Source: Brachyspira innocens ATCC 29796 (GTDB taxonomy: Bacteria > Spirochaetota > Brachyspiria > Brachyspirales > Brachyspiraceae). From it: a stretch of DNA of 39,896 bases. Below the pieces are notes generated by a model. The model saw nothing but the letters and a program-made list of their open reading frames with translations, was not told where the DNA came from and ran no database searches. The translations under genes were made by a program, and so were the position numbers. Location of the stretch: contig NZ_ARQI01000099.1 in assembly GCF_000384655.1 (NCBI RefSeq), positions 1 to 39,896 of the forward strand, in the 5' to 3' direction. The stretch's first letter is position 1, and the number at the start of each line of letters is the position of its first letter. Below, piece after piece: positions 33,527 through 39,498 of the stretch.

Positions 33527-33865
33527 TTATATATTTTCTTTTAATAAACTTATTATCTCTTCTTTGCTTAACACCTTTCCGTATGAAAGCACTTTATCAT
33601 CTAATACTAAAGCAGGTGTTGACATCACACCATAAGAAGCTATTTCAGCCATATCCTCTACATACTGAACTATCAAATCTAGTTTAGCCTCTTCAATAGC
33701 AGCTATTACATTTTCTTCTAATTTTTGACAGTTAGAGCATCCAGTTCCAAGTATTTTTACTCTGGCTTCTACTGGGGATTCTTTATTTGTTTCCTCTTCA
33801 CCGAAGAGATTGATGGCAGGTCCTCAGCCGCAGCTTCCGCCGAAAAAAAGATCTTTTAATGTCAT
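33527..33865 (-). CDS. Thioredoxin-fold selenoprotein (TGA at codon 14 read as selenocysteine)
   Basis: A 112-residue protein when the in-frame TGA (33824-33826) is read as Sec14: MTLKDLFFGGSCGUGP, then a thioredoxin-like domain with CxxC (GTGCSNCQ, Cys43 and Cys46) and the cis-proline loop GVMSTPALVLDDKVLSYGKVL. It is about 70% identical by eye over the last 75 residues to the Cys paralogue at 34581-34880. AAGGAG lies six bases before the ATG, and no other start codon lies before the CxxC, so translation must pass the TGA. A hairpin with a GGU loop lies at the right distance after it. The N-terminal Cys-Gly-Sec forms a second redox site besides CxxC. Its sisters are next to an ArsP-type permease. 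Partner and substrate are unknown. Confidence 0.87.
33794..33808 (-). other. Bacterial SECIS-like hairpin of the first selenoprotein
   Basis: On the - strand CTCTTC-GGT-GAAGAG forms a perfect six-base stem with a GGU loop; one further U-G pair extends it. The stem begins 15 bases after the TGA, placing the GGU about 21 bases downstream. SelB-binding SECIS elements in bacteria have a G/U-containing apical loop at just this distance. Confidence 0.8.
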
Positions 33866-33880
33866 ATGTTTCTCCTTTTA

Positions 33881-34081
33881 TATATTAAAAATTATTCGCT
33901 TAAAGGCTCTTACCAGAGGCTCATAATTTTTAATTTGCTTATATATTAAAAATTATTCGCTTAAAGGCTCTTATCAGAGGCTCATAATTTTTAATTTGCT
34001 TATATATTAAAAATTATTCGCTTAAAGGCTCTTCCCAGAGGCTCATAATTTTTAATTCGTTTTATATATTAAAAATTATTC
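33881..34081. repeat. Three 61-bp tandem repeats, each an imperfect palindrome
   Basis: Units start at 33881, 33942 and 34003, and a fourth copy of 17 bases starts at 34065. Each unit opens with TATATTAAAAATTAT and has ATAATTTTTAAT near its end, so one unit can fold on itself with CTCT/AGAG at the tip. The units are nearly identical and differ mainly at the tip (TACC, TATC, TCCC). They fill the gap between the two selenoprotein genes and end some 15 bases ahead of the second start codon. Confidence 0.93.
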
Positions 34082-34113
34082 TCTGTAAAACTATTATCAA
34101 AATTTATATATTT

Positions 34114-34428
34114 TTATAATTTTTCTTTTAAAATATTTATTATTGTTTCTTTACTTAATACCTCACCATATGATATAAGCTCATCATTAACAACAAGTGC
34201 AGGCAAAGTCATAACTCCGTAATATGACATACTACCTTTACTGTCTGTAAATTTTATAGATAAATCCAAATCCAAATCTAATATAGCATTTCTTATATTG
34301 CTAAGCATATTTAATGAAGCCTCATCATCATTTCTGCCTAATAATAATATCTTTTCTATTTCTCTTTCCTCATCTTCTAGAGGATCAGGCAAACAGCCTC
34401 AGCCGAATTCTATATTTTTTTTAATCAT
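34114..34428 (-). CDS. Thioredoxin-fold selenoprotein without CxxC (TGA at codon 10)
   Basis: A 104-residue paralogue of the neighbour when the TGA at 34399-34401 is read as Sec10: MIKKNIEFGUGCLPDP. A conventional reading would start only at a TTG (34392) after the TGA, without a ribosome site, and would lose the Sec-Gly-Cys site. The thioredoxin-like domain keeps the strand order and the cis-proline loop GVMTLPALVVNDELISYGEVL, but the usual GTGCSNC is GRNDDEAS, so the CxxC pair is gone. The only redox residues left are Sec10 and Cys12. The ATG at 34428 has a weak ribosome site (AAGGG about 12 bases ahead). A hairpin follows the TGA at the right distance, less typical than that of the sister gene. 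Confidence 0.78.
34367..34384 (-). other. Possible SECIS hairpin of the second selenoprotein
   Basis: On the - strand TCCTC and GAGGA enclose TAGAAGAT; a further T-A pair with one bulged T narrows the loop to AGAAG. The stem begins 14 bases after the TGA. There is a G in the first two loop positions but no GGU, so this is weaker evidence than in the sister gene. Confidence 0.5.
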
Positions 34429-34580: not shown

Positions 34581-34880
34581 TTATTTTACTTTATCTTTTA
34601 ATAAAGCAATAATTTCGTCTTTAGTAAGCACCTTTCCATATGATAATACTTTTTCATCAAGCACCAAAGCAGGAGTTGACATTACACCATAAGAAGCTAT
34701 TTGTGCCATATCCTGTACATGTCCTACACTTAGATCAATACCCATTTCTTTTACAGCTTCTAAAGCATTTTTTTCAAGCTTTTGGCAGTTTGAACAGCCG
34801 CTTCCCAATATTTTAATTCTGGCATTTGATGATTCTCCGCTGCATGAACCTCCGCAGCAGCAATTTTTTTCTGATGACAT
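34581..34880 (-). CDS. Thioredoxin-fold redox protein, cysteine-rich N-terminus
   Basis: A 99-residue protein of the family called redox-active disulfide protein 2 (TM0996-like). The N-terminus is CCCGGSC (Cys7, 8, 9 and 13), the thioredoxin-like CxxC is GSGCSNC (Cys29 and Cys32), and the cis-proline loop is GVMSTPALVLDEKVLSYGKVL. It is the all-cysteine sister of the two selenoproteins downstream. AAGGAG precedes the ATG. It lies 43 bases after the permease gene in the order ArsR-permease-thioredoxin, a grouping often seen for COG0701 permeases. The probable job is to hand thiols or a bound metal(loid) to or from that permease; this is inference from gene order. Confidence 0.88.
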   Translation of the reverse strand: MSSEKNCCCGGSCSGESSNARIKILGSGCSNCQKLEKNALEAVKEMGIDLSVGHVQDMAQIASYGVMSTPALVLDEKVLSYGKVLTKDEIIALLKDKVK

Positions 34881-34923: not shown

Positions 34924-35934
34924 TTATACAAATAGAAAATAAAAATTATTAAATAAATATCCAATAATTATTATTCCTAAAGTTACTATACCCACAAAAA
35001 GAACAAGAAGCTGTATTTTTACTACCTTTTTTATCATAATAATTGATGGAAGTGATAAAGCAGTAACCGCCATCATAAAAGATAAAATAGTTCCTATTCC
35101 AGCACCTTTATAAAATAAACTTTCAGCCACTGGAAGAGTACCGAATATATCTGCATACATCGGTATACCAACTAAAGTTGCCAACGGAACAGAATACCAA
35201 TTATTTTTTCCTAGTACCGTATTTATCCATGCTTCTGGTATAACATTATGTATAAAAGCTCCTATTCCAACTCCTATAAAAATATATAAATAAACTTTTT
35301 TTATAGTCTGCATCACCTGATCTTTTGAGTATATAATTCTATCTTTTTTTGTCATAGACTGTATTTCTACATCTGTATTTGATTTTATATTTTTAACAAA
35401 ATCTTCTAAATATCTCTCCATTTTTAGTTTGCCTAATAATGTACCTCCTGCAACGGCAAGTACAAGCCCTACAATAACATAAGCTATAGCTATTTTCATT
35501 CCAAACACACTTGATAGAAGTATTAAAGAGGCCAAATCTACAAGAGGCGAAGATATTAAAAAAGAAAATGTTATAGAAATAGGTATTCCTGCAGAAGTAA
35601 ATCCTATAAATAAAGGTATTGAAGAGCAAGAACAAAATGGAGTAACCGTTCCAAAAAGTGCTGCTAATATATTTGCTGATATTCCGTTAAATCTGCTTAA
35701 TATTTTTTTGGTTCTCTCTGGAGGAAAATAGCTTTGAATATATGATATACAAAATATGAGTACAGATAAAAGTACAAATATTTTTATAACATCATAAATA
35801 AAAAACTGTATTACTCCTTTCATTGTTTCTGATAGGGCAAAATTATTTAATATATTGCCTATCAATGTATTGAGCCATTTCATTGATATAATTTGATCCT
35901 GTATAAAAATAAATATTGATTTTATAACTGACAT
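34924..35934 (-). CDS. Permease of the ArsP/COG0701 (YraQ) family
   Basis: A 336-residue inner-membrane protein with about eight helices. The conserved cysteine motif is TPFCSCSSIPLF (Cys101 and Cys103), followed by GFTSAGIPISITFSFLISSPLVD; a second half repeats the pattern with VGIPMYADIFGTLPVAESLFYKGAGIGTILSFMMAVTALSLPS. Members of this family export trivalent organoarsenicals (ArsP); others have unknown substrates. The ATG at 35934 has AGGAG ahead; the frame extends to 35988 into the regulator gene without support. An ArsR regulator with a metal-binding CVC sits 16 bases upstream. The substrate is likely a thiol-reactive metal or metalloid, inferred from family and neighbours. Confidence 0.87.
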   Translation of the reverse strand: MSVIKSIFIFIQDQIISMKWLNTLIGNILNNFALSETMKGVIQFFIYDVIKIFVLLSVLIFCISYIQSYFPPERTKKILSRFNGISANILAALFGTVTPFCSCSSIPLFIGFTSAGIPISITFSFLISSPLVDLASLILLSSVFGMKIAIAYVIVGLVLAVAGGTLLGKLKMERYLEDFVKNIKSNTDVEIQSMTKKDRIIYSKDQVMQTIKKVYLYIFIGVGIGAFIHNVIPEAWINTVLGKNNWYSVPLATLVGIPMYADIFGTLPVAESLFYKGAGIGTILSFMMAVTALSLPSIIMIKKVVKIQLLVLFVGIVTLGIIIIGYLFNNFYFLFV

Positions 35935-35950
35935 TTTTATAACTCCTAAT

Positions 35951-36274
35951 TTATTTTTCGCATTTACATTTTGCTGTGCTTTCAGCATTCTTATCTGATA
36001 TTATAGTTGTATAATAGTTTAATAATTTTTCTGCGTTTTTTATTCCTTCTTTATTAAAACTATAATAAGTCCATTTGCCTTCTTTTCTTCCTGCTACTAT
36101 ATTTGAATCGCAAAGTATTTTCATATGATGTGATAATGTAGACTGTACTATATGTAATTCTTCCAAAAGTTTGCATACACATATTTCACCGTCTTTAATC
36201 ATTTCTAATATTTTTAATCTATTCTCATCGCATAGAGCTTTGAATACTATTGCATTATTCTTATAATCCTGCAT
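35951..36274 (-). CDS. ArsR/SmtB-family metal(loid)-responsive repressor
   Basis: A 107-residue winged-helix repressor. ALCDENRLKILEMIKDGEICVCKLLEELHIVQSTLSHHMKIL contains the CVC pair (Cys32 and Cys34) of the alpha-3N-type arsenic/antimony site, and the helix-turn-helix QSTLSHHMKIL. The wing is GRKEGKWTYYSF. The C-terminus has an extra CKCEK that might add a ligand. It should release DNA on binding arsenic or antimony. It is the first gene of the cluster, just after a promoter dotted with ATATCGA sites. Confidence 0.93.
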   Translation of the reverse strand: MQDYKNNAIVFKALCDENRLKILEMIKDGEICVCKLLEELHIVQSTLSHHMKILCDSNIVAGRKEGKWTYYSFNKEGIKNAEKLLNYYTTIISDKNAESTAKCKCEK

Positions 36275-38253: not shown

Positions 38254-39498
38254 TTATTTGTTTATAGTACGCATGTCTATTACATATCTGAATTTTACCT
38301 TTCCGTCTATAACTTTTCTGTATGCTTCTTTTATAGTTTGGGCATCTGCTTTTATTATTTCTACACTAGGATAAATATTATTTTCTATAGAATAGTTAAG
38401 CATTTCCTGAGTTTCTTTTATTCCGCCTATTAAAGAGCCGAATAATTTTTTACTGCCATGTTGCCCTATCATAGCTGTAAGTGTAGGCATTTTTGAAGTT
38501 CTAGGAAGCCCTAATAAACACATAGTACCTCCTCTTTTAAGCATACGCATATACATGTTAACATCATAGTATGCTGGTATGGTACTTATTATATAATTAA
38601 GAGTATTATTAACATTTTTTAAATCTTCTGCATTATTTACATTAACATATTTTACTGCTCCCATATTTAAAGCGTCTTCTCTCTTATCTTCTGTTATGTC
38701 AAAAACAGTAACTTCAGCACCCAGTTTTACAGCATATTTTACTGCCATAGATCCAAGTCCTCCGAATCCTGCAATGCCTATTTTTTCTCCCTTTTTTACA
38801 TTCATAGCTTTTATAGGCGAATAAGTGGTTATGCCTGCACAAAGAAGCGGAGCAACCTTATCAAGTTCTGCATTATCTGGTATAAGTATTGCAAAGTTTT
38901 CAGACACTACTATGTTGTCAGAGTATCCGCCTTGAGTTATCTCATTGCCATGAAATCTATCTCTTGAGCCGTAAGTATAAACTGCTCTATTTAAACAGTA
39001 CTGTTCTAAATTATCCAAGCAGCTTTCACATTGTCCGCATGAGTTCACCATGCATCCTACACCAGCAAAATCACCAACCTTAAATTTTGTTACTTTACTT
39101 CCAACTTGTACAACTCTTCCTGCTATTTCATGTCCTACTACAATCGGAGTGCTGCTTGATTTACCTTCAACAACATGTATATCACTATGGCATATTCCAG
39201 CATAAAGTATTTCTATTAGTACGTCATTATCTCCTACCGCATGCCTTGTAAACTCATGATATTTAAAATCCATATTGGCTGAAACTGCTGCAAAGCCTCT
39301 TGATTTTATTCTTCCATTTGCATTGGTTTGTATATTAATAGGGGCTTTTTTAAGATTCTGATTATACATTGCATTTGAAGAATTATTTTGTAAAGCATTA
39401 TTATTTTCTGTATTTATGCTTGTTTGAGCATTTGATGAATTATTGCATGACATTATAAATAATATTGATAGTATAGTTATTAATATAGATTTTTTCAT
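38254..39498 (-). CDS. Zinc alcohol dehydrogenase with lipoprotein signal peptide
   Basis: A 414-residue medium-chain zinc dehydrogenase of the YahK/cinnamyl-alcohol type. Zinc ligands include GICHSD (Cys103) and GHE (His123-Glu124); CGQCESCLDNLEQYC is the structural zinc site; GFGGLGSMAVKYAV is the cofactor-binding fold. It differs from a normal cytoplasmic enzyme by about 65 extra N-terminal residues: a lipoprotein signal ending in FIMS-Cys18, then an Asn/Ser-rich linker. AAGGAG lies eight bases before the first ATG, so this start is real. The enzyme is likely lipid-anchored on the outside of the inner membrane or on the outer membrane, where free NADP(H) is not available; its electron partner is a puzzle. 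Confidence 0.9.
   Translation of the reverse strand: MKKSILITILSILFIMSCNNSSNAQTSINTENNNALQNNSSNAMYNQNLKKAPINIQTNANGRIKSRGFAAVSANMDFKYHEFTRHAVGDNDVLIEILYAGICHSDIHVVEGKSSSTPIVVGHEIAGRVVQVGSKVTKFKVGDFAGVGCMVNSCGQCESCLDNLEQYCLNRAVYTYGSRDRFHGNEITQGGYSDNIVVSENFAILIPDNAELDKVAPLLCAGITTYSPIKAMNVKKGEKIGIAGFGGLGSMAVKYAVKLGAEVTVFDITEDKREDALNMGAVKYVNVNNAEDLKNVNNTLNYIISTIPAYYDVNMYMRMLKRGGTMCLLGLPRTSKMPTLTAMIGQHGSKKLFGSLIGGIKETQEMLNYSIENNIYPSVEIIKADAQTIKEAYRKVIDGKVKFRYVIDMRTINK

Follow-up and report, generated by a model that had tools for sequence, protein, structure and literature searches.

Clustered selenoprotein genes of Brachyspira were described in 2017 in a paper whose authors we take to be Santesmasses, Mariotti and Guigo. 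According to the passages of PMC5330540 that concern them, these genes form a new family of selenoproteins, named "redox-active disulfide protein 2", with three clustered members, two of which carry selenocysteine (Sec) in a short stretch N-terminal to a PF13192 domain and are accompanied by candidate SECIS elements. One copy, "Sec.1", is described there as lacking CXXC. The same passages propose a function no further than oxidoreductase and do not mention ars genes. The protein that we analysed, U2, corresponds by description to "Sec.1", and U2 and its loss of CxxC are therefore already published in essentials in PMC5330540, as far as these passages go. They treat Sec as one alignment column; a swapped order of Sec and Cys, the constraint on single sites and the neighbouring ArsR, ACR3 and permease genes are not discussed in them.

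Kinship in fold and sequence connects the three proteins of our locus, U2 and its sisters U3 and T1, with the MTH895/ArsE family (TIGR00412, structure 1ilo). U3 and T1, with scores of 97.8 and 100, exceed the curated cut-off of 62, and 1ilo is the best solved match to the U2 model (E 3.5e-4, TM 0.75 by target), whereas U2 itself scores 39.6 and has no CxxC. ArsEFG and roxarsone are reportedly the subject of work by Chen, Zhang and Rosen from 2019. The literature passages that we found on ArsE consist of a bare mention with a citation, and searches linking MTH895 with thioredoxin, or Cys-Gly-Sec with selenenylsulfide, found no such publication.

The combination of a thioredoxin-like (seleno)protein with an ArsP_1-type permease is shared with SaoT and SaoE (NF040730 and NF040736), which belong to the selenocysteine-assisted organometal systems. 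Membership in SaoT/SaoE was ruled out, the scores being far under both cut-offs: SaoE is the best NCBIfam match of our permease with 100.3 of a cut-off of 325, and SaoT (cut-off 65) gives 13.2 for U3, 14.7 for T1 and no match for U2 at E 0.1. A literature search for "selenocysteine-assisted organometal" returned nothing on the subject by title. ArsD is a thioredoxin-like As(III) chaperone encoded in ars operons, in which a cysteine cluster binds As(III). None of the three proteins matches Pfam ArsD at E 0.1, which rules out ArsD membership, and U2 differs from ArsD in that its site precedes the first strand in our model. In mammalian thioredoxin reductase a flexible C-terminal tail holds a Cys-Sec selenenylsulfide that serves as a second redox centre; the enzyme is unlike U2 in fold and in the end of the protein concerned, and its Cys and Sec are adjacent, with no Gly between them.

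A selenoprotein without the thioredoxin disulfide

The window, a stretch of 39,896 nucleotides from Brachyspira innocens ATCC 29796 (contig NZ_ARQI01000099.1), contains the features listed in Table 1. Translation of the minus strand gives a U2 reading frame with one in-frame TGA, at codon 10, and the protein MIKKNIEFGUGCLPDP...ILLLGRNDDEASLN...MSYYGVMTLPAL. It contains Sec10 and Cys12 and no other Sec or Cys, and shows GRNDDEAS where the sisters have GxGCSNC. An earlier note on this DNA had claimed that the thioredoxin disulfide is gone, that Sec10 and Cys12 are the only candidates left for redox or metal work and that fold and cis-proline loop are preserved. All of this holds, the fold by prediction. 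PF13192 (Thioredoxin_3) matches U2 with 35.8 bits against a gathering score of 24.8, a model from 30 alignment rows shows a confident thioredoxin fold (mean pLDDT 85), and the loop is strongly conserved, as the codon analysis below shows. A chance TGA, a pseudogene or an assembly error is ruled out by the same TGA in 23 orthologues and by a pN/pS of 0.29. U2 is thus confirmed as a real, constrained feature. The orthologue in one genome (G008) has an extra stop codon near the C-terminal end.

Table 1 Features of the U2 locus in the window.
Feature	Position	Strand	Remarks
ArsR/SmtB-family metalloregulator	35951..36274	-	profile match
ArsP_1-family permease (PF03773)	34924..35934	-	profile match
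T1, sister with intact CxxC (GSGCSNC) and a tail rich in Cys (CCCGGSC)	34581..34880	-	
U2, thioredoxin-fold selenoprotein without CxxC	34114..34428	-	104 aa; ATG at 34428, stop TAA ends 34114
TGA codon 10 of U2, read as selenocysteine	34399..34401	-	TGA in 23/23 orthologues
Cys12 codon of U2, TGT	34393..34395	-	among 22 orthologue rows TGT 20, TGC 2
Candidate bacterial SECIS hairpin, UCCUC/GAGGA	34367..34384	-	begins 14 nt past U2 TGA
GRNDDEAS, site of lost CxxC in U2	34315..34338	-	residues 31-38
cis-proline loop of U2, MSYYGVMTLPAL	34195..34230	-	residues 67-78
U3, selenoprotein sister that retains CxxC (GTGCSNC) and has a Cys12-Gly-Sec14 tail	33527..33865	-	
TGA codon 14 of U3, read as selenocysteine	33824..33826	-	

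The genome of U2 encodes both a tRNA-Sec (60.2 bits, cut-off 47) and SelB (290.4 bits, cut-off 242.25). The evidence for the SECIS element from our analysis is modest: the six-pair helix of the candidate is paired in 98.3% of cells, with one compensatory pair only and with 47 of 500 shuffles equally good, and its folding gave shuffle z values of -0.8 to -1.7 in three folds. The U2-type SECIS is rated a good candidate in the relevant passage of PMC5330540. In two members of the genus (G001 and G003) none of the three thioredoxin genes and no close permease is present, yet a tRNA-Sec scores above the cut-off.

Constraint within U2

Among 26 Brachyspira genomes, 23 encode a U2 orthologue, all with the same in-frame TGA; position 10 is thus Sec in 23 of 23 and Cys in none. 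F8-G9-U10-G11-C12 is invariant in all 23, as are P14 and D15, although these rows are related members of one genus and do not count as independent trials. Invariant runs of at least four residues occur only twice, at residues 8-12 and 67-77. At the former CxxC position the residues vary and indels change the length. That U-G-C is fixed while the CxxC position drifts is the pattern that the earlier note had predicted for an alignment of orthologues.

The codon analysis, based on 22 orthologue rows, gave the same picture. For residues 8-12 pN was 0.000 and pS 0.575, and for the cis-proline loop (67-78) 0.010 and 0.457, in comparison to 0.266 and 0.566 for the stretch of the lost CxxC (33-40) and 0.148 and 0.502 for the whole protein. 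Residues 2-7, directly ahead of the motif, are free to change (pN 0.318). Gly11 is encoded by GGC or GGA and Cys12 by TGT or TGC, and this silent variation indicates that the constraint acts on the protein and not on the RNA alone. An origin of the U-G-C conservation from SECIS RNA alone was ruled out for residues 8-12, where third codon positions vary and the residues are fixed; RNA constraint may contribute at residues 13-21, where the candidate hairpin is located. U2 is therefore sharply constrained at two sites, the motif in the tail and the cis-proline loop. Because the constraint sits in exactly these two places, the proposal that U-G-C is the functional centre and the fold its platform is well supported.

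In the U2 model residues 1-5, 7-11 and 14-16 are below pLDDT 50 and the tail is disordered, as are residues 1-30 in the model of U3. Since the tails are disordered in both models, the Sec-Gly-Cys pair is probably carried by a flexible segment that precedes the first strand.

Sister proteins and origin of the CxxC loss

The three proteins have different tail pairs, namely U-G-C in U2 alone, C-G-U in U3 and C-C-C in T1. The statement that U2 had "kept" Sec-Gly-Cys is therefore inexact, since the sisters carry other motifs. In an alignment of 30 paralogues, Sec10 of U2 is placed over Cys12 of U3 and Cys12 of U2 over Sec14 of U3, so that all of them carry the pair, with Sec on opposite sides. Given the motifs of the sisters, U-G-C is U2's own version of a C/U-x-C/U pair. 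An alignment of Sec on Sec, as the figure legend in PMC5330540 implies, is a possible alternative because the motif is so short. U3 (20 rows) conserves Cys-Gly-Sec, both CxxC cysteines and nearly the whole cis-proline loop. The 18 T1 genes found have Cys in the tail in 14 cases and Sec in four, and one genome (G019) has a single-copy gene; the passages of PMC5330540, in contrast, report one Cys gene and two Sec genes in all genomes of that study. At least one sister with CxxC is present in each of the 23 genomes with U2. Interrupted genes were also seen, namely U3 in G002 and the start of T1 in G025, some of them possibly assembly errors.

Between U2 and U3 the window contains three near-identical tandem copies of a 61-base repeat (33878-34060) and a partial fourth (34062-34122). 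Short complementary arms flank a core richer in G+C. Within the genome of the window, full-length copies are confined to this place, and two partial matches lie at other positions.

In a tree of 78 distinct domains and 82 columns, whose bootstrap has not settled on the branching order of U2, U3 and T1, all U2 domains group in one clade (100/100), whose stem is long with 1.87 changes per column. As U2 is a single clade on a long stem, CxxC was probably lost once. GCxxC is found in none of 23 distinct U2 domains versus all 55 others (U3 15/15, T1 16/16, single copy 1/1, outside the genus 23/23). The single gene of G019, which combines C-G-U with CxxC and has ArsR, ACR3 and the permease as neighbours, may represent the pre-duplication state. 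Outside the genus we sampled 26 loci, 20 chosen among the matches of a 392-genome phylum search and six from 142 plasmid records. CxxC is retained in 25 of them; the other (L105) is a fragment that starts after the CxxC site. Tails with at least two Cys occur in eight of the 26 loci, and none of these tails contains Sec.

The ars operon setting

On the minus strand the genes are transcribed in the order ArsR, ArsP_1 permease, T1, U2, U3. The arsenite exporter ACR3 is encoded in 14 of the 26 genus genomes, and in all 14 it adjoins the permease at less than 400 bases on the same strand. A family check gave 380-384 bits for three full-length copies against a cut-off of 282.8, and one further copy was partial. 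Because ACR3 lies beside the permease in these 14 genomes, the gene content indicates that the cluster is by descent an ars operon of the type arsR-(acr3)-arsP-trx. An exporter together with ArsR, the criterion for an ars operon, is found in the genus through ACR3 and not in the genome of the window: ACR3 was not found there, and of the 23 genomes that encode U2, 10 lack it. In G009 and G021 ACR3 is in pieces. Cassettes of ArsR, permease and thioredoxin also occur in Monoglobus, Peptoclostridium, Ilyobacter and Acinetobacter plasmid records. A literature search for Brachyspira with arsenite returned no publication about Brachyspira by title.

The thioredoxin fold had also been suspected of docking to the permease, and this part of the earlier proposal was not supported. 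No close permease was found in G017, which has U2 and U3, and the reading frame of the permease is broken in G010, G022 and G024, where U2 survives; G022 and G024 are draft assemblies in which the broken frames may be sequencing errors, and G010 is a single contig. These four genomes weaken the idea of U2 as an obligate permease partner. As the permease is absent or broken in them and ACR3 is missing in 10 of 23 genomes, U2 can outlive the transporters. Two other genes separate the permease part from U2 and U3 in G016 (L118 3367-5765), G010 (L130 2987-5390) and G012 (L134 3025-5436). In G016 they are a lactose/cellobiose PTS IIC gene, which comes first, and a gene that matches nothing in NCBIfam; those of G010 and G012 were taken to be of the same kind from the way their sequences start. 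Single genes of the cluster are broken in various genomes, some perhaps through assembly errors, which suggests that ars functions decay piecemeal.

Elsewhere in the window, an ORF on the minus strand (38254-39498), named by eye as zinc alcohol-dehydrogenase-like, starts with an apparent lipoprotein signal peptide, which is unusual for a nucleotide-dependent enzyme.

Proposed function of U2

We propose, with about an even chance of being right, that U2 belongs to the ars operon as a thiol/selenol protein dependent on Sec, in which the tail would be the reactive centre, a sister with CxxC the partner, and the chemistry that of thiols in connection with arsenic. The selenol of Sec10 and the thiol of Cys12 would be free in one state and, in the other, linked as a selenenylsulfide or engaged in an arsenic adduct, and the pair would cycle between the two. 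The cis-proline groove, rid of its own CxxC, could hold the tail of U2 or that of a partner; the U2 tail is too poorly modelled to tell whether it reaches the groove. U3 and T1 would then reduce or unload U2 with their CxxC, a relay that we infer from the co-occurrence of U2 and its sisters in related genomes. The net job would be the reductive handling of trivalent arsenicals or of thiols damaged by arsenic. More tentatively, we envisage a split selenium relay for trivalent arsenicals within the ars operon, in which a fold without CxxC bears a mobile Sec-Gly-Cys tail, the emptied groove docks this tail or that of a sister, and two paralogues have the pair in reversed order, as U-G-C and C-G-U; this specific scheme is rather unlikely to be right.

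U2 might instead be an arsenic metallochaperone similar to ArsD, whose selenol/thiol tail would capture As(III) or an organoarsenical and pass it to a transporter or a sister without redox cycling. The ars operon context, the Cys-rich or Sec-bearing tails and the loss of the CxxC needed for redox work would fit such a role. So would the distribution of the permease outside the genus, where a homologue above 400 bits lies beside all eight loci with a tail of at least two Cys versus six of the 18 others. However, most known Sec residues serve in catalytic redox sites, T1 has a plain Cys tail, U2 offers two ligands only, and it persists in G017 without permease and ACR3. We consider the metallochaperone rather unlikely.

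The persistence in G017 can also be turned towards a general thiol or peroxide redox selenoprotein with a substrate unrelated to arsenic, for which the location in the ars cluster would be incidental. U2 and U3 survive the loss of the permease there and are parted from it by two genes in G010, G012 and G016, and redox-enzyme neighbours of the family are noted in a passage of PMC5330540. The fact that U2 outlives ACR3 and the permease also fits this explanation. The presence of ACR3 in the cluster of 14 genomes and the recurrence of ArsR-permease-Trx cassettes in Clostridia, Fusobacteria and Gammaproteobacteria speak against it, and we regard it as doubtful, slightly more so than the metallochaperone. 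That U2 is a pseudo-thioredoxin subunit without chemistry of its own, a scaffold for U3 or T1 as the lost CxxC, the long stem branch and the constant presence of a CxxC sister might suggest, is highly improbable given a Sec codon that needs special machinery and is retained in 23 of 23 orthologues, and U-G-C codons at pN 0.

In conclusion, our analysis adds a constraint map, the reversed motif and the ars operon setting to the published record of this family. With the Sec-dependent thiol/selenol protein described above, a testable function is now proposed for an ars-operon selenoprotein in which constraint singles out the Sec-Gly-Cys tail and the cis-proline loop. If this proposal is true, Brachyspira would provide a rare use of selenium in arsenic handling, and U2 would represent a natural separation of the thioredoxin docking surface from the redox pair.
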